The translations under genes and the position numbers were made by a program. The notes beneath the pieces were generated by a model. The model was not told where the DNA came from, did no database searches, and worked only from the letters and a program-made list of their open reading frames with translations. A DNA stretch of 64,000 nucleotides from the NCBI RefSeq assembly GCF_900114655.1, contig NZ_FOTT01000001.1, positions 68,973 through 132,972 on the forward strand, written 5' to 3'. Below are positions 6,520 to 41,116 of this stretch, piece after piece (the first letter of the stretch is position 1; every line of letters begins with the position of its first letter). This DNA comes from Candidatus Frackibacter sp. WG13. GTDB lineage: Bacteria > Bacillota > Halanaerobiia > Halobacteroidales > Acetohalobiaceae.

Positions 6520-7602
6520 CTAAGCTGCTGAATCAACTAGTAGTTTAATAAATTCATTAAACAAATACTCTGAATCATTCGGTCCTGGTGCTGCTTCTGG
6601 ATGATACTGCACCGAACAGATAGGTAGCTGTCTATGCTTCATCCCCTCTATCGTCCCATCGTTTAAATTTTTATGGGTAACTATAATTTCTTTCGGTAAC
6701 GAATCTGCTTTAATAGCATAACCATGATTCTGGGAAGTAATATATACTTGCCCAGTACTCAAATCTTTAACTGGATGATTCGCTCCTCGATGTCCGAACT
6801 TAAGTTTATAAGTATCAGCCCCTAAAGCTAAACCAAGAATCTGATGTCCAAAACAGATCCCAAATAGCGGCACTTTCCCAACTAACTTCTTTACTTCTGT
6901 TACAACTTCTGGTACATCTTTAGGGTCGCCTGGACCATTAGAAATGAAAACACCATCAGGATTAATTTCTAAAATCTCATCAGCCGATGTTTCTGCTGGT
7001 AAGACAGTTAGCTTAACATTACACTTTCTAAACGACTCTAAGATATTATTCTTAACTCCTAAATCTAAGACTGCAATATGATATTTAGCTTGGTCAGTAA
7101 TAGCATCTAAGGAGTATTTCTCATTAGTAGTAACTTCATAAACTAAATCACTACCTAAACTACTTGCCTTTGCTTTCTGAATTAAGCTTTCTGGATTTAA
7201 GTCCTCAGTTGAAATTACTGCTTGCATCATTCCATGATCTCTAATATGCTTTGTTAAAGAGCGAGTGTCAATTCCTTGAATGCCAACCACATTATGATGC
7301 TTTAAAAATTCTTCATCCGTCTCTTGACAACGCCAATTACTAGGATAATTACAACTCTCTCTAACTATAAAACCACTAACTTGTGGTTCTTTAGATTCAT
7401 TATCTTCATCATTAATCCCATAGTTACCGATTAATGGATAAGTCATATTCACAATTTGACCGCGGTAAGATGGGTCAGTCATCACTTCCTGATAACCGGT
7501 CATACTAGTATTAAATACTACCTCACCATCTACCTCACCAGTAGCACCAAATGACTCGCCAATAAAATATGTGCCATCTTCTAAAGCTAAAATCGCCTTC
7601 AT
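6520..7602 (-). CDS. carA: Carbamoyl-phosphate synthase small (glutaminase) subunit
   Basis: The 360-aa glutamine amidotransferase subunit hydrolyses glutamine and channels ammonia to CarB. The N-terminal CPSase domain starts '[20 protein letters not shown]'. The class I amidotransferase domain has the nucleophile Cys in '[14 protein letters not shown]' (about residue 248) and the His/Glu pair in '[10 protein letters not shown]' near the C-terminus, so the triad is complete. It is first in the carA-carB operon, and an ARG-box promoter lies about 70-100 nt upstream. The other arginine-operon genes are 10 kb away, and no other pyrimidine genes are nearby. Confidence 0.97.
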
Positions 7603-7672
7603 ACTATCCCCTCCATCTATTTAAGTTAAGTTTTTAACAGAATTGGTTATTGCTTATTAATTGTTGTTAATA

Positions 7673-7702
7673 ATTATACATCATAATGTATAAAGATGCA
7701 AA
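7673..7702 (-). promoter_or_regulatory. carA promoter with ARG box (ArgR/AhrC operator)
   Basis: On the minus strand TTGCAT (7701-7696) is separated by exactly 17 nt from TATAAT (7678-7673). On the plus strand 7685-7702 matches the Bacillus AhrC/ArgR half-operator CATGAATAAAAATKCAAK at 14 of 18 positions. The box covers the -35 hexamer and most of the spacer, so a bound arginine repressor would block RNA polymerase. The argC promoter (21966-21996) has the same geometry. Confidence 0.8.
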
Positions 7703-7720
7703 CGTATTATTAAATTTTTA

Positions 7721-7752
7721 CAAAAATAAAAAGACACCACTGAACTGGTGTC
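7721..7752 (-). terminator. Rho-independent terminator downstream of the nucleotidyltransferase-like gene
   Basis: A 7-bp stem, GACACCA/TGGTGTC (7733-7739 with 7746-7752), is followed on the minus strand by TTTTTATTTTT. It sits between the 3' end of the 103-aa gene at 7887 and the carA promoter, insulating carAB from read-through. Confidence 0.8.
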
Positions 7753-7886
7753 CTCTATTCTAATATTTAATTATATATTATTAATAAATTACAACTAAAA
7801 AATATTCAAATTTATTTTCTCGCCATAATAACTTGCCACTTTAATTGATAAGTCAGCCTAATTTACAATAATTTCCTCTCCTACAA

Positions 7887-8198
7887 TTAATCTTCTCTTA
7901 TATACAGTACTTCTCCTTCTTCTAAGACTTCTTTATAAAGCATAGGTCCTAATCTAGTTTCAGGAGTTAGTTCATCAGGAGTAAATACAAAAGGATTAAA
8001 AGGCAATTTACGGTTAGTAATTAAATTAGAAACTACTGTTCCACGTTCATAACTCCTCATCTCAGTTTCTTTAACAATTAACATATTAATCATAACCTGA
8101 TTAGTTCCAAAAAGAATAATCTTATCCGGTTCATACTCTTCTTTAATTATTTCTGTAATACGCTCAACCTCACTTCTATACAGATCCGTTGTAGACAT
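7887..8198 (-). CDS. Degenerate nucleotidyltransferase-fold protein, probably catalytically inactive
   Basis: 103 aa, start ATG 8198 behind GGGAGGAG. 'EPDKIILFGT' matches the first strand of MNT/pol-beta-like nucleotidyltransferases (normally 'KIILFGSxARG...DSDIDLLVV'), and 'INMLIVKET' matches the following strand. The intervening Gly-Ser loop and the catalytic DxD are missing: G-S is G-T and roughly ten residues containing both aspartates are deleted. The downstream sequence ('VSNLITNRKLPFNPFVFTPDEL...YKEVLEEGEVLYI') fits the usual tail of these domains. The reading frame is intact and has its own terminator, so it may be a maintained non-enzymatic protein. No HEPN partner is adjacent. Confidence 0.6.
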   Translation of the reverse strand: MSTTDLYRSEVERITEIIKEEYEPDKIILFGTNQVMINMLIVKETEMRSYERGTVVSNLITNRKLPFNPFVFTPDELTPETRLGPMLYKEVLEEGEVLYIRED

Positions 8199-34610: not shown

Positions 34611-35498
34611 TTATCTCTTACCTTTTTCAAATGGTTCCCCAATAGCTGTAGGAGGAGTCGATTTTCCTATAACTCCTGCTAAAGCAATAATTGTAAAGAT
34701 ATATGGAATCATCTGCACGAATTCAGTAGGAATTCCCAACCCTTGTAATCTAATCTGTACCGCTTGTGAAAATCCAAATAATAGACTAGCTCCTAAAGCA
34801 CCAAATGGAGTCCACTTACCAAAAATCATTGCCGCCAAAGCAATAAATCCACGCCCCGCTGTCATCCCTTCACGAAAACTATCTAATACACCTAAAGATA
34901 GATGAGCCCCTGCCAAACCTGCTAAAATTCCACTAATACCTACACATATATATCTAATCTTTTCTACATCAATCCCTACCGAATCAGCAGCATGAGGATG
35001 TTCCCCAACTGACCTAACTCGCAGCCCAAAAGGTGTCTTAAATAGAACATAATGGGCAATAAATACTACTAATAAACCAATATAGACTGTTGGCTTGAAA
35101 GGACCCCAGTAAGGCAAAGCATTTACAGACTCAGAGGTACCTGACGTATTAAAGATAATATTCAACATAAATACCGTTCCACCAGCCGCTAACATATTGA
35201 TCGCTACACCACTTACTACCTGATCAGCATGGTACTTAATACTAACTACAGCATGGATCATAGCGAAGAGACCACCAAAGACTAACGCCCCTAATAATCC
35301 TAACCAAGGAATACCTGTAAAATAACTAACAACTACCGCTATAAAGGCTCCCGCTAACATTAACCCTTCTAAAGCAATATTAATAATTCCTGAACGCTCA
35401 GAATAAAGCCCTCCTATAGCTGCAATAGCCAAAGGTGTAGCCATTCGCAAAGTTGAACTTAAAGTCTCTAAACTAAATATTTGTGTCAAAATCTCCAT
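34611..35498 (-). CDS. ABC transporter permease, BMP/nucleoside type (second permease)
   Basis: 295 aa, eight or so helices. 'ERSGIINIALEGLMLAGAFIAVV' and 'YHADQVVSGVAINMLAAGGT' are typical of the NupQ/YufQ-like permease paired with BMP binding proteins. 'VGEHPHAADSVGIDVEKIRY' is the EAA-like loop contacting the ATPase. It overlaps the first permease stop by one nt (TAATG) and is the last gene of the operon. Confidence 0.92.
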   Translation of the reverse strand: MEILTQIFSLETLSSTLRMATPLAIAAIGGLYSERSGIINIALEGLMLAGAFIAVVVSYFTGIPWLGLLGALVFGGLFAMIHAVVSIKYHADQVVSGVAINMLAAGGTVFMLNIIFNTSGTSESVNALPYWGPFKPTVYIGLLVVFIAHYVLFKTPFGLRVRSVGEHPHAADSVGIDVEKIRYICVGISGILAGLAGAHLSLGVLDSFREGMTAGRGFIALAAMIFGKWTPFGALGASLLFGFSQAVQIRLQGLGIPTEFVQMIPYIFTIIALAGVIGKSTPPTAIGEPFEKGKR

Positions 35499-36562
35499 TA
35501 AGCTACACCTCCTTCACTCTTATTAGGAATAAATTGTCTAAAGATTAAATCAGCAGCTACAAAGAAGATAATAATAGCTTGAATAATATTTACCAAATCA
35601 ATCGGCACTCCAGCTGCCATATTCATAAAAGTTCTACCATTAGACAAAGCTCCAAATAAGATTCCTGCTAATAAGATTCCAAATGGATGATTCCTTCCTA
35701 ATAGAGCAACTGCAATCCCAGTAAATCCATAACCTGGTGAAAACCCCTGAATATAATAGTGATATAAACCTAAAGTTCTTTCAGCTCCTCCTAAACCAGC
35801 TAAAGCACCACTGATTAACATTGCTAAAATAATATTTTTAGGAGCACTAATACCTCCGTATTCCGCTGCATCAGGATTAATTCCAACTGCTCTAATTTCA
35901 TAACCAATAGTCGTCTTCCAAAGTAAATAATAAATAAATAATAAGACTAATAAAGCTAATATAAATCCTAAATTCATATATGACCTAATATCTAAAATAT
36001 TTGAAAATCTCCATAAATAAGCACTTGCCTCGATTGGCGGTGTCTTTATCTCTCCTGGATTGGCTAGCACTTTCAAACTCAAATATGCAACCATAGCATA
36101 AGCAATATAATTCATCATAATAGTTGTAATCACTTCGTGCACACCTAAAAATGCCTTTAAAACAGCAGGAATAGCAATCCAAATGGCTCCAGCTATTGCT
36201 GCTGCTAACACAGCTAATGGCACATGTACAACTACCGATAAACCATCAAAAGTTCCTACCCAAGCTGCTGCTAAACCGCCAACTAATAACTGACCTTCGC
36301 CTCCAATATTGAATAGACCACAACGAAAAGCAAAAGCAACTGCTAAACCAGTAAAAATTAATGGAGTTGCTGCTAATAATGTATCTGCAAAACGATTCAA
36401 GTTACCAAAAGCCCCTTGTAACAGTGCCGCATAAGTTTCAATAGGATCATACCCAAAGGTATATACAATAATTGCACCAATAATAAATGAAAATATAATT
36501 GCTAAAAGTGGAATTAATAATTCAATTGCTAATTCTTTAATATCAATCTTATCAACTCCCAT
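35498..36562 (-). CDS. ABC transporter permease, BMP/nucleoside type (first permease)
   Basis: 354 aa with about ten hydrophobic segments. 'LAVAFAFRCGLFNIGGEGQLLVGGLAAAWVG' and 'AVGINPDAAEYGGISAPKNI' match the NupP/YufP-like permease. Its start overlaps the ATPase stop by 11 nt, showing translational coupling. Forms a heterodimeric channel with the 34611 product; the substrate is probably a purine nucleoside (family inference). Confidence 0.92.
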   Translation of the reverse strand: MGVDKIDIKELAIELLIPLLAIIFSFIIGAIIVYTFGYDPIETYAALLQGAFGNLNRFADTLLAATPLIFTGLAVAFAFRCGLFNIGGEGQLLVGGLAAAWVGTFDGLSVVVHVPLAVLAAAIAGAIWIAIPAVLKAFLGVHEVITTIMMNYIAYAMVAYLSLKVLANPGEIKTPPIEASAYLWRFSNILDIRSYMNLGFILALLVLLFIYYLLWKTTIGYEIRAVGINPDAAEYGGISAPKNIILAMLISGALAGLGGAERTLGLYHYYIQGFSPGYGFTGIAVALLGRNHPFGILLAGILFGALSNGRTFMNMAAGVPIDLVNIIQAIIIFFVAADLIFRQFIPNKSEGGVA

Positions 36563-38084
36563 TAGCTATCCCTCCTTCTAAACTACCACCAGCCATTAAA
36601 ATTCCTAACTTCTCTTCTGTCGCCTCTGCAGCATCTACTATGTCAACAATTTCACCTTCATACATAACTGCAATCCGATCACTCAATGAAATTACTTCCG
36701 GTAGCTCAGCTGAAACTAACAGAACTGCCTTCCCTTCATCGCGCTGTTCTAAGATTCGTCGATGAATAAATTCAATAGCACCTACATCTACTCCACGAGT
36801 CGGCTGGGAGGCAATTAAGAATTCAGGGCCTAAATCAAACTCTCGTGCTACAATAATCTTTTGCTGATTTCCTCCGGATAAAGAACGTGCTAGTGCTTCC
36901 TTATTTTGAGGTCGAATATCATACTCTGGAATCAAACGATTAGCATGCTCAGCCAAGTTATTAAAGTTTAAATTAATCCCTTTAGCAAATGGCTCACGAT
37001 AATGATAACCCAAAACTAAATTATCTTCGACTGTATAGTCTAAAACCAAGCCATGCTTATGTCTATCCTCGGGAATGTGAGCTACTTTGGCTTCTTTAAT
37101 TTTCCTAGCTGAATGATTATAAAGTGAATCACCATGTAAATTATACTCACCAGCAGTAGCCTCTCTTAATCCAGTCAAGACCTCAACCAACTCAGTCTGT
37201 CCATTTCCTTCCACTCCAGCAATACCTAAAATCTCACCAGCCCTAATTTGAAAAGAGACTGAATTTAACGCCTCCATCCCTCGGTCATTGAAGGCACTCA
37301 AATTTGAAACTTCTACTAATACTTCACCAAAATCAGCTTCTTCTTTTTCTACCTCTAATAGAACTTCACGTCCAACCATCATCCTAGCTAATTCTTTTTG
37401 ATTAGTCTCTGAAGTTGTAACAGTTCCTATTCCTTTCCCTTTACGTAAAACAGTAATCCGATCCGAAATTCGTAAGACTTCCTTTAATTTATGAGTAATA
37501 AATATAATTGACTTTCCTTGTTCAGTTAGAGACTCCATGATTTGATATAACCCCTCTACTTCTTGCGGGGTTAAAACAGCCGTTGGTTCATCTAAAATTA
37601 ATACCTCTGCTCCACGATAAAGAGCTTTTAAAATTTCTACTCTTTGCTGCATTCCAACCGGAATATCCTTAACTTTAGCTGTAGCATCAACTTGTAATCC
37701 AAATTTATTAGCCAGTTCGTTAACTTTAGCAATAGCCTTTTCAATATCTATTTTCAATCCTCGTTTTGGTTCAGAACCTAAAATAATATTTTCTGCCACT
37801 GTCAATGTTGGTACTAACATAAAATGCTGATGAACCATACCAATTCCTAATTCAATGGCATCTTGAGGCCCATCAATATCTAATTTTTGACCTTTATAAA
37901 ATATTTCTCCTTCCTCAGGAGTATACATACCAAAAAGTACACTCATTAGTGTTGATTTGCCAGCACCATTTTCACCAATCAAAGCATGAATTTCTCCTTG
38001 GTATAAATCTAAGTTAACGTTATCATTAGCTAATACTCCTGGAAATCGCTTAGTAATAGCTTTCATTTCTAAGATCGGCTCCAA
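36552..38084 (-). CDS. ABC transporter ATP-binding protein, double-domain nucleoside/sugar type
   Basis: 510 aa, two fused nucleotide-binding domains. The first is canonical: 'IGENGAGKSTLMSVLFG' (Walker A), 'PVGMQQRVEILKAL' (degenerate signature), 'LILDEPTAVLTPQE' (Walker B). The second has 'IAGVEGNGQTELVEVL' (altered Walker A lacking GKS/T) and 'LSGGNQQKIIVAREF' (good signature). This asymmetry is normal for CUT2/BMP-type ATPases (RbsA, NupO). Starts ATG 38084; a hairpin lies in the 76-nt gap after the binding-protein gene. Confidence 0.94.
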   Translation of the reverse strand: MEPILEMKAITKRFPGVLANDNVNLDLYQGEIHALIGENGAGKSTLMSVLFGMYTPEEGEIFYKGQKLDIDGPQDAIELGIGMVHQHFMLVPTLTVAENIILGSEPKRGLKIDIEKAIAKVNELANKFGLQVDATAKVKDIPVGMQQRVEILKALYRGAEVLILDEPTAVLTPQEVEGLYQIMESLTEQGKSIIFITHKLKEVLRISDRITVLRKGKGIGTVTTSETNQKELARMMVGREVLLEVEKEEADFGEVLVEVSNLSAFNDRGMEALNSVSFQIRAGEILGIAGVEGNGQTELVEVLTGLREATAGEYNLHGDSLYNHSARKIKEAKVAHIPEDRHKHGLVLDYTVEDNLVLGYHYREPFAKGINLNFNNLAEHANRLIPEYDIRPQNKEALARSLSGGNQQKIIVAREFDLGPEFLIASQPTRGVDVGAIEFIHRRILEQRDEGKAVLLVSAELPEVISLSDRIAVMYEGEIVDIVDAAEATEEKLGILMAGGSLEGGIANGS

Positions 38085-38114
38085 TTGATTGCCACCTCCT
38101 ATTAGTCATTATTA

Positions 38115-38150
38115 AGAGTAGTTATCAGCTATCTCACTGATAACTACTCT
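38115..38150 (-). other. Intercistronic hairpin between the binding protein and ATPase genes
   Basis: AGAGTAGTTATCAG pairs with CTGATAACTACTCT (14 bp, 8-nt loop). It lacks a T tract. In binding-protein operons such hairpins protect the upstream message and lower downstream expression; that is inferred here. Confidence 0.65.
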
Positions 38151-38160
38151 ATTAATTTAT

Positions 38161-39318
38161 CTATTCTCCTTGTTGTTCTAAATAATTAGGTACTTTAATT
38201 TCTCCAGCAATAATCTTCTCTTTAATATCTTTTACCTTTTGCTTAACCTCTTCTGGAATTCTATTCTTCATTTCCTTAATAGTCTGGACATCTTCTGCAG
38301 TAATATCACCTAACTCCTTAGCAGTCTTTACTGTAGGACCAACACCAGTTAAAGGAGTTAAGCCTACCCCATTCTCTTTTAGACCAAATTCTTGAACTCC
38401 AGATTCAAAATTATCATTTTTAACAGCTTTAACTGTTTGATAAACTGCATTATCAACTCGCTTTAACATACTAGTTAAAACAAATCCTGGCTGTACCCAA
38501 TCTTGATCTGAATCGACACCAATTGCATACTTACCTTGTTTAGCAGCAGCTTTAAATAATCCCCCACCAGTACCACCAGAAGCATGATAAATTATATCTG
38601 CTCCAGCATTATATTGAGATAAAGCAATTTCTTTCCCTTTAGCTGGGTTATTAAAAGCATCCGGTGAAGTCCCAGCATAAGCGACTTTAACCTTTACATT
38701 AATTCCTTCTTGCTCATTGATATAGTCTACTCCAGATGTATATCCTAATTCAAATTTATGGATTAAAGGCATATTCATGCCGCCTAAAAACCCTACTACT
38801 TTTTCTTCATTAATTCCTTTAACCTCATCATGAGTAGTTAATAAAGCAGATAAAGCACCTGCTAAGAATGAACCTTGATGCTCTTTAAAAGTTAAAGAAA
38901 CAACATTGTCTCTTTCTACCACACTATCAATTAAAGCAAACTTAGTATCTGGGAATTCTTTAGAAACTTTATCAACTGCATCTTGCTGCATAAACCCTAC
39001 ACCAATTACTAAATCATAACCATTTTGGGCTAAAAATCTTAATCCTTTTTCAGCAGCTGAAACTTGTTTTGGCTCAATATACTTATATTCAATATCAAAA
39101 TCCTCTTTAGCTCTTTCTAAACCTCTAATAGCTGAATCATTAAATGACTTATCTCCTTTACCACCACTAGATAAGACAATACCAACTTTTAAACTTTCTT
39201 TTTGGTCTTCCTGAGTTCCTTGTTGATCCTGATTATTTCCACCACCACAGCCGGCTACTAATAGTCCTACCAGCAAAATAGCTACTAATACAACTGTCTT
39301 TCGATTAAATTTTAACAT
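38161..39318 (-). CDS. BMP-family substrate-binding lipoprotein
   Basis: 385 aa. Signal peptide 'VLVAILLVGLLVAGC' ends at a lipobox (VAGC), so the protein is lipid-anchored. The mature part is the basic-membrane-protein fold: 'KVGIVLSSGGKGDKSFNDSAIRGLERA' (ligand-binding Asp/Phe), 'GFMQQDAVDKVSKEFPDTKFALIDS', 'AIGVDSDQDW'. Members bind purine nucleosides (PnrA/TmpC, NupN). Longest-range partner is the GntR gene just upstream (83-nt gap). Start ATG 39318, 9 nt after GGAGG. First structural gene of the operon. Confidence 0.93.
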   Translation of the reverse strand: MLKFNRKTVVLVAILLVGLLVAGCGGGNNQDQQGTQEDQKESLKVGIVLSSGGKGDKSFNDSAIRGLERAKEDFDIEYKYIEPKQVSAAEKGLRFLAQNGYDLVIGVGFMQQDAVDKVSKEFPDTKFALIDSVVERDNVVSLTFKEHQGSFLAGALSALLTTHDEVKGINEEKVVGFLGGMNMPLIHKFELGYTSGVDYINEQEGINVKVKVAYAGTSPDAFNNPAKGKEIALSQYNAGADIIYHASGGTGGGLFKAAAKQGKYAIGVDSDQDWVQPGFVLTSMLKRVDNAVYQTVKAVKNDNFESGVQEFGLKENGVGLTPLTGVGPTVKTAKELGDITAEDVQTIKEMKNRIPEEVKQKVKDIKEKIIAGEIKVPNYLEQQGE

Positions 39319-39401
39319 TAAATTACCTCCTTGATTTTAAGGTTTAATTAATTTAATCCCTCTTATTAATCTTTACTACTTACTAAGTATTAATTCACCT
39401 C

Positions 39402-40136
39402 CTATCTTCTTTGTCTAATCACTTGAAACTTAAACTTATCACTTCTAAAGTAAAGTTTAGAATAGAGAATTGGATTTTCATTATCATAATGCATCTGTTT
39501 TAAAAGTAAAAACGGTACTCTAGTATCAATATCTAAAAATTTAGTCACCTCACGATCAGTAGTAATTGGACTGATATCTGCTATAGCGTGAGTAATATAA
39601 ACATTACATTTATTTTCAAGCAAATCAAAGAGTGATCCATAAAAATCTTCATCATCAACTAACTCATTTAGTACATCTTTTAATAAATAATCATTACAGA
39701 AAGCAACTGGTTCACCATCAGCAGTTCTAATTCGTTGGATATTAAGCAATAGATCACCTTCATTAACTCCAAACTTCTCAGCTAATTCTGTATCTGCCTT
39801 TACTTGCTTTTTTTCCAAACAAGTAGTTCCTGCTTCTAACCCTAACTCTTCTATCATCTCTGTCAAACTTGACAATTCCTCAATTCCACTTTCAAATAAT
39901 GGAGTATTATCCTTAACAAAAGTTCCTACTCCTTGTCTCCGATTCACTCGACCTTCTTCTTCTAAAACTCTTAATGCCTCGCGTAGAGTAGCTCTACTAA
40001 CTCCAAAACTTTCTGATAATTTTGCTTCTGAAGGTAACTGATCCCCGGACTGATAAGTACCATCTTCAATTAATTCTTCAAGCTTATTCTTAACTAATAT
40101 ATATAGTGGTCTAGAATCCTGTTTGATTAAACTCAT
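39402..40136 (-). CDS. GntR/HutC-family transcriptional regulator
   Basis: 244 aa. Winged helix 'KNKLEELIEDGTYQSGDQLPSEAKLSESFGVSRATLREALRVLEEEGRV' and 'RRQGVGTFV' precede a UTRA effector domain ('LEKKQVKADTELAEKFGVNEGDLLLNIQRIRTADGEPVAF'). It is first in the operon with the BMP transporter and should sense the imported ligand or a product. A palindrome just below its own promoter (40241-40262) is the likely operator, implying autoregulation. Start ATG 40136 after GGAGGGAGAAG. Confidence 0.93.
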   Translation of the reverse strand: MSLIKQDSRPLYILVKNKLEELIEDGTYQSGDQLPSEAKLSESFGVSRATLREALRVLEEEGRVNRRQGVGTFVKDNTPLFESGIEELSSLTEMIEELGLEAGTTCLEKKQVKADTELAEKFGVNEGDLLLNIQRIRTADGEPVAFCNDYLLKDVLNELVDDEDFYGSLFDLLENKCNVYITHAIADISPITTDREVTKFLDIDTRVPFLLLKQMHYDNENPILYSKLYFRSDKFKFQVIRQRR

Positions 40137-40307: not shown

Positions 40308-40313
40308 ATAAAT

Positions 40314-40350
40314 AATGGTGAATTATCGTGATTTTTCACGAAATCCACCA
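40314..40350 (-). terminator. Terminator-like hairpin of the Rossmann-chemoreceptor gene
   Basis: AATGGTG/CACCATT with an inner TCGTGA/TCACGA helix, followed on the minus strand by ATTTATTT. It separates this gene from the GntR promoter. Confidence 0.65.
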
Positions 40351-40356
40351 TTAAAA

Positions 40357-41043
40357 TCAATCTTCTAATTCTAAACTCTGTTTTTGTAAATTATTAACAG
40401 CATCTGTAATATTTTCATTTAGATTAATAATATTTTGATTTACCTCTTGAATATTACTAACTAAGCCACTAGACTTCCCAGCCAAATCTTTTACTGCCCC
40501 AGCTACTACTGAAAATCCTTTACCTGATTCTCCAGCATGGGCTGCTTCAATAGAAGCATTAATAGCCAGCATATTTAGATCACTAGTTACTTTTTCGATT
40601 TCAATTACTGATTGTTTTACATCCTGTGAATTATCCCTAATCGCATCATGCACCTCAGTCAAATGATTAGTTACTGTTCCTAATAAGTTCTGTTGGGACT
40701 CTTTATAATCCTCAATAATATTGAATAGTAAAAATGAAGCATGACCAGCAATTACATCTACATCCTCCATCTTATTATCATTAACCTTCTTTAGTACATC
40801 TTTAGAGCCTGTAACTTCTATAATTAAATCAATTTGCTTATCATTAAGTATATCCATTATTTCAGTAGTAGTTTTAAGTCCCTCTTTTTTAGCCAAGACC
40901 ATCGCTGGAGCATTCACATCTATATCAGCAACATATTTAATGTTAATTGAATCCATCTTTAAAAATATTTCTAGTAAATTAGACCCCCCCGTTCCTCCAC
41001 CAATAATTCCAACATTAATTTCTTCCGCAAATTTTGTGTTCAA
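40357..41043 (-). CDS. Soluble Rossmann-fold protein fused to a short chemoreceptor signalling hairpin
   Basis: 228 aa, no membrane segment. Residues 8-120 form an NAD(P)-binding fold: 'VGIIGGGTGGSNLLEIF', strand 2 ending in an acidic pair ('KYVADIDVNAPAMVLAKKEG'), 'DLIIEVTGSKDV' and 'DVIAGHASF'. After a helical arm, residues 160-200 match the methyl-accepting chemotaxis protein tip: 'NMLAINASIEAAHAGESGKGFSVVAGAVKDLA'. The two coiled-coil arms are only about 40 and 30 residues. TTG start 41043 after GAGGAGG. It should couple a dinucleotide or redox signal to CheA/CheW (inference). No chemotaxis genes are nearby. Confidence 0.82.
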   Translation of the reverse strand: MNTKFAEEINVGIIGGGTGGSNLLEIFLKMDSINIKYVADIDVNAPAMVLAKKEGLKTTTEIMDILNDKQIDLIIEVTGSKDVLKKVNDNKMEDVDVIAGHASFLLFNIIEDYKESQQNLLGTVTNHLTEVHDAIRDNSQDVKQSVIEIEKVTSDLNMLAINASIEAAHAGESGKGFSVVAGAVKDLAGKSSGLVSNIQEVNQNIINLNENITDAVNNLQKQSLELED

Positions 41044-41116
41044 ATCGCTAACGCCTCCTCATTTCTACTTTAAACTATATAATGTGCGCTTATACTTCAA
41101 TTTCTATATAAATAGC

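Follow-up and report, generated by a model that had tools for sequence, protein, structure and literature searches.

The window, a stretch of 64,000 nucleotides, carries on its minus strand a gene of 228 codons (40357-41043) that opens with a TTG start and encodes a protein of 228 amino acids. An AGGAGG ribosome-binding site, read from the sequence, lies 10 nt upstream of the TTG (41054-41059, minus strand) and a hairpin just 3′ of the stop codon (40313-40353, minus strand; −21.4 kcal/mol, z −4.6) is a possible terminator. A consensus scan of the minus strand gave no sigma70-like promoter immediately upstream of the gene. Orthologues in other genera of the same order are 46-72% identical, thus the open reading frame is neither a chance one nor a fusion artefact; it is a real gene. 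Single-protein scans of genome contigs and viral contigs returned no relatives of the 228-residue protein. Of the neighbouring genes, GntR/BMP-ABC and ftsK recur beside it in the nearest relative (L039) alone, and no conserved gene neighbourhood that would explain the gene was found. In the window these neighbours include a GntR-type regulator followed by an apparent BMP-type (nucleoside) ABC transporter operon (34611-40136, minus strand).

Residues 8-99 (40747-41022, minus strand) form a Rossmann domain, located by Pfam and NCBIfam matches, profile, model and superposition. The Pfam matches GFO_IDH_MocA (E 2.3e-4, 22.3 bits) and NAD_binding_3 (E 9e-4, 20.4 bits) both fall below the cut-off of 24; the NCBIfam N-terminus of acetaldehyde dehydrogenase matches with E 1.2e-6. 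In an AlphaFold2 model built on 61 sequences of the family, with a mean pLDDT of 89.1 overall and mostly 92-97 in blocks of the Rossmann part, five strands and the helices between them take up residues 9-98; residues 100 to 227 are helical and constitute the hairpin. NAD-bound GenD2 (6nor_B) superposes on residues 4-104 with Z 12.8 and rmsd 2.1 over 97 residues (VIA-align). The fold is thus the beta-alpha-beta Rossmann type of NAD(P)-binding domains, with GxGxxG glycines conserved in 112-114 of 115 copies. An earlier note on this DNA had placed such a fold at residues 8-120 and staked its reading on structural similarity to Rossmann proteins; that similarity is clear from the GenD2 superposition, and the domain ends near residue 99, not 120. 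The last Rossmann helix of the model is also the first receptor helix, so that the hairpin follows directly. Pfam/NCBIfam, the model and the superpositions on GenD2 and Tsr agree on the proposed joining of this domain to a chemoreceptor tip, and no membrane helix is seen in sequence or model.

The remainder of the protein is a short MCP hairpin of about 8 paired heptads (residues ~116-228; 40360-40698, minus strand), identified by Pfam, model and superposition. Pfam places MCPsignal at residues 123-223 with E 1e-19 and 71.5 bits against a cut-off of 34.6. Residues 340-441 of E. coli Tsr in the core signalling unit (6s1k_E) superpose on residues 121-222 with Z 12.9 and rmsd 1.4 over 102 residues; Z scores run high for helical bundles, and the match of the tip sequence is separate evidence. 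The stretch between residue 100 and the tip counts 72 residues in 9/9 short members and 99-109 (median 106) in 52 longer relatives; on the far side of the tip the lengths are 49-67 (median 54) and 76-88 (median 86), respectively. The C-terminal arm of the window protein has 56 residues (~8 heptads). Compared with the ~24H relatives, the short form is missing ~34 residues from one arm and ~32 from the other, about five heptads in each case; the losses are matched in size and helix pairing would thus be preserved. The hairpin corresponds to about Tsr 335-447 only and the methylation (adaptation) region is absent; the Tsr methylation sites, 297-311 and 493, lie outside the matched part. Published MCP classes range from 12 to 32 paired heptads (PMC6628036), or 24H to 64H in MiST3 (PMC6943060). 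At ~8 the window hairpin is below the at least 12 of the catalogued classes, and the earlier remark that it falls far below the standard MCP classes in length was well founded.

In the tree of Rossmann domains one SpoIIE protein (L047) groups with the short members in a single clade (SH-aLRT 99), and the short hairpin is a lineage-specific form beside the ~24H-like relatives. With few columns in that tree, we only infer that it arose by shortening and not by lengthening of the relatives. The window receptor is a variant form of soluble chemoreceptor with an arm shorter than any class we found described. Like soluble 24H-class receptors (Thermotoga maritima 3g67 for the fold; L057 here), it is cytoplasmic, has no HAMP or membrane helix and ends in a conserved-tip hairpin, whereas its input is a Rossmann domain and both arms are about five heptads shorter. 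YfmS of Bacillus subtilis aligns with the model over the hairpin only (99-228) and is not among the 60 Rossmann-profile matches listed. As a natural minimal receptor, the short hairpin bears on how little of an MCP suffices to bind and control CheA. We note that L057, from the same genome (C1, 7494-8381, plus strand; 295 residues), combines a 24H-like C-terminal arm (86 residues) with a non-Rossmann input. Another locus, L056 (7259-8124, minus strand), holds a ~24H receptor in two frames (7672-8124 and 7259-7645), either a broken gene or a sequencing frameshift.

The receptor tip (residues 155-185, Tsr 374-404; 40489-40581, minus strand) differs from the norm at two positions: His-169 stands at Tsr Arg-388 and Ala-183 at Tsr Glu-402, both changes being shared with the closest relative. 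The longer relatives have Arg at Tsr 388 in 51/52 cases and Glu at Tsr 402 in 52/52. In two other short members three residues are inserted at the turn of the tip. Asn-162, Ile-165, Glu-166, Gly-174, Gly-176 and Phe-177 are invariant in 9/9 short members and Glu-402 is kept in seven of the nine. Since R388H and E402A fall at near-invariant positions, normal array function of the window member appears likely but not assured. The tip changes, taken with the missing methylation region, suggest either an input specialised for signalling without adaptation or looser contacts within the array; retention of the gene across the order and the invariance of much of the tip favour an active receptor.

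The genome (99.99% complete) has CheA/CheW genes, whose lack would have spoken against the earlier reading: three of its proteins are of CheA type and a further four are CheW, beside 17 matches to MCPsignal. In the phylum sample, matching the genome lists by eye, the CheA dimerisation domain was found in 54/54 genomes with a Rossmann-MCP against 246/299 overall (p 8e-6, ignoring ancestry). How so short a hairpin might join receptor arrays is a smaller puzzle than the earlier note made it, for the tip that binds CheA/CheW is retained and arrays in the cytoplasm do not depend on a membrane (PMC3964821). A title cited in PMC6628036 reports independent signalling by receptors that differ in length class, and sharing of arrays with the long MCPs of this genome is thus doubtful.

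The Rossmann domain extends well beyond this receptor. A profile search of 13 genomes of the order located it in nine, all of which have the short receptor; conservation of the architecture in other genomes, which the earlier note had proposed to check, is therefore borne out. Of 299 genomes sampled from all over the phylum, about 30% (89) contain the domain by a profile of the Rossmann part alone (E<=1e-10). For hosts, open frames were read at 100 loci from the phylum search and 20 from the order search; types were assigned by simple motif rules, with Pfam confirming partners on representatives. MCP hairpins are the commonest fusion partner: ~24H-like MCPs account for 53 hosts, PAS plus sigma54 activators for 31, MCPs with an extra middle domain for 10, short MCPs (the window protein included) for 9 and others for 16. 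Among the other hosts are PAS plus Fis-HTH proteins without AAA+, a SpoIIE phosphatase (L047) and an HD-GYP protein (L188), along with L178 and L179, in which the domain stands by itself. A scan of named genomes with a 12-row alignment located the domain in Priestia megaterium, Halalkalibacterium, Parageobacillus, Paenibacillus, Desulfosporosinus, Syntrophomonas, Thermincola, Pelotomaculum and Tepidibacter. Alphaproteobacterial matches (about 430-450 residues) were excluded as apparent enzymes of the homoserine-dehydrogenase type. General Pfam Rossmann families match many members weakly, reaching the cut-off in some only, and searches of Pfam and NCBIfam brought up no family dedicated to this sensor. 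We take it for a widespread, apparently uncatalogued sensor on many bacterial switches, and the module is a more interesting object than the receptor itself. The earlier note was right in description and outline and too narrow in scope, having missed the shared module, the lineage-specific hairpin and the tip changes.

Several hosts merit individual description. L047 (6379-7932, minus strand) combines the Rossmann domain with a SpoIIE phosphatase and an anti-sigma-type ATPase; its genome, that of a relative (G006), also has the short receptor, of which L047 is a paralogue, and an apparent anti-sigma antagonist lies two genes upstream of L047. The domain is fused to GAF plus GGDEF in L253 (1976-3373, plus strand; a Nitrospirae record) and to GAF/PAS plus HD-GYP in L188 (6099-8372, plus strand), fusions that would link the module to c-di-GMP. 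The Rossmann plus PAS plus Fis HTH proteins without AAA+ (L183-L186 and L189-L192, ~301-318 residues) form one clade (SH-aLRT 98), and fumarase genes lie directly downstream of four of them. In Rossmann-MCPs of ~490-520 residues (L120, 6184-7662, plus strand; L130, L134, L138, L147, L148, L162, L166 and L174) a middle region of ~230 residues (about 100-330 in L120) has no Pfam match and is possibly a second sensor.

Across the 115 copies of the Rossmann domain, the lowest-entropy columns are, in order, Gly-15, Gly-20, Gly-17, Asp-40, Thr-78 and Ala-51, and conservation of the first five holds across output types. The glycines belong to the GxGxxG dinucleotide-binding loop (residues 15-20, GGGTGG; 40984-41001, minus strand), in which Gly-15 is found in 114/115, Gly-17 in 112/115 and Gly-20 in 113/115. 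Strand 4 ends in an E-x-T-G motif (residues 76-79; 40807-40818, minus strand) that contains Thr-78 (111/115). Asp-40 (40924-40926, minus strand; 112/115) occupies the end of strand 2, a position at which an acid usually indicates binding of NAD(H) and not of NADP(H) or CoA. It lines up with an Asp common to both Rex proteins of this genome, which are separate paralogues (L286 and L287; C29 and C34) with 45% identity. Rex, which binds and senses NADH (PMC2883068), is among the PDB matches of the Rossmann profile and the closest folds are NAD enzymes. Like the window protein it has a Rossmann domain with GxGxxG and an Asp after strand 2; it differs in its winged-helix N-terminus and C-terminal Rossmann domain, and profile similarity is weak (hhalign probability 15%). 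No Rex-type winged-helix DNA-binding domain occurs in the window protein, where Pfam gives Rossmann and MCP parts only. Taken together, GxGxxG and the Asp aligned with that of Rex favour NAD(P)(H) as ligand, with NAD(H) more likely than NADP(H). We read the domain as a modular cytoplasmic sensor whose predicted ligand is most likely NAD(H).

The sigma54 versions provide metabolic context, gene names having been assigned by reading sequences. Downstream lie apparent genes for class I fumarase, fumarate reductase/SDH and malic enzyme, as well as succinyl-CoA synthetase (sucCD) and methylmalonyl-CoA mutase. MmcA, regulator of the Pelotomaculum mmc operon, looks to us like a further family member (L204 is from a Pelotomaculum MAG). 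In Bacilli the sigma54 version precedes ptb, leucine dehydrogenase and buk, that is, the BkdR operon. These BkdR-type activators (L243 and relatives) thus carry an N-terminal Rossmann domain of the window protein's family, with PAS, AAA+ and Fis-type HTH as output where the window protein has an MCP hairpin. One study of BkdR in Bacillus thuringiensis names only its two PAS/PAC domains (PMC4428206); with the Rossmann input recognised, the signal that BkdR-type activators sense becomes directly testable. A survey of Clostridiales sigma54 activators lists PAS, GAF, ACT, CBS and other inputs and no Rossmann domain (PMC6615313).

We propose, with a probability of about 0.5, that the window protein is a cytoplasmic chemoreceptor reporting an internal metabolic signal, most likely NAD(H) bound by the Rossmann domain. 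The redox state of the NAD(H) pool, or simply occupancy, would alter the packing of the two Rossmann domains in a homodimer. As the last Rossmann helix runs directly into the hairpin, such a change would travel down the short four-helix bundle to the tip and there alter CheA activity together with CheW. The protein has neither membrane anchor nor methylation region and would thus be a non-adapting energy/redox input to chemotaxis. That one Rossmann family is found on MCP, sigma54, SpoIIE, HD-GYP, GGDEF and Fis-HTH outputs is a sensor-like modularity which supports this proposal, and the position of sigma54 versions at NADH-yielding operons counts for NAD(H). What is known of energy and redox taxis comes mainly from flavin-PAS receptors. 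Aer and its kind read the internal redox or energy state (PMC9668731), as the window protein would, with a different fold and presumably a different cofactor. With a Rossmann receptor the chemotaxis kinase would have a direct reading of the NAD pool. Searches of the literature for a chemoreceptor of the Rossmann/NAD kind gave nothing relevant, which is weak evidence as subscription papers are mostly outside their coverage.

The ligand might instead be acyl-CoA, CoA or a small pathway metabolite (a branched-chain or C4 acid); NAD would then be missing or have no more than a structural role. Counting towards this and against NAD(H), the best PDB profile matches are acylating acetaldehyde dehydrogenases (E ~1e-7; Z 11-12 on the Rossmann part of the model by VIA-align), enzymes whose Rossmann site takes CoA as well as NAD. 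In addition, CoA_binding weakly matches 21/115 members. The sigma54 versions adjoin ptb/bcd/buk, sucCD and methylmalonyl-CoA mutase operons, pathways which yield NADH and also involve acyl-CoA, so that CoA sensing remains a rival. Asp-40, however, should repel the 3′-phosphate of CoA and the 2′-phosphate of NADP, and the aligned dehydrogenases, which have a catalytic domain that the window protein lacks, have no Asp in that column. A single ligand class would also need to fit all the operons and receptors. We consider this alternative unlikely. An accidental fusion of a truncated dehydrogenase, playing no part in signalling, is suggested by the similarity to dehydrogenase N-termini and is scarcely credible: the catalytic domain is missing, the Rossmann-MCP architecture is conserved across genera and the domain recurs on recognised signalling outputs in 89/299 genomes of the phylum sample.

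A separate question is whether the short form still controls CheA. The hairpin might serve for dimerisation, as a decoy or for another partner, the window member being in the course of dropping out of chemotaxis. R388H, E402A and the tip-turn inserts in two relatives would fit, as would the missing methylation region, a length under every catalogued class and the lack of the short form in 4/13 genomes of the order. Set against these, the gene is intact in the other nine, where six tip residues do not vary and most members keep Glu-402; loss of CheA control therefore seems rather improbable to us.

Returning to NAD(H) sensing, we tentatively suggest, with slightly more doubt than confidence, that the Rossmann domain senses NAD(H) as a mobile module of PAS/GAF-like portability, unrecognised as a sensor in the domain libraries searched. 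In Bacillota and outside them it would couple redox state to chemotaxis, to transcription by sigma54, to phosphatases of the partner-switching type and to the turnover of c-di-GMP, and in the window's order would drive a minimal ~16-heptad chemoreceptor below every catalogued class. The domain also occurs alone: L178 (5834-6217, plus strand) and L179 (6184-6576, plus strand) encode stand-alone Rossmann domains of 127-130 residues with no output domain.
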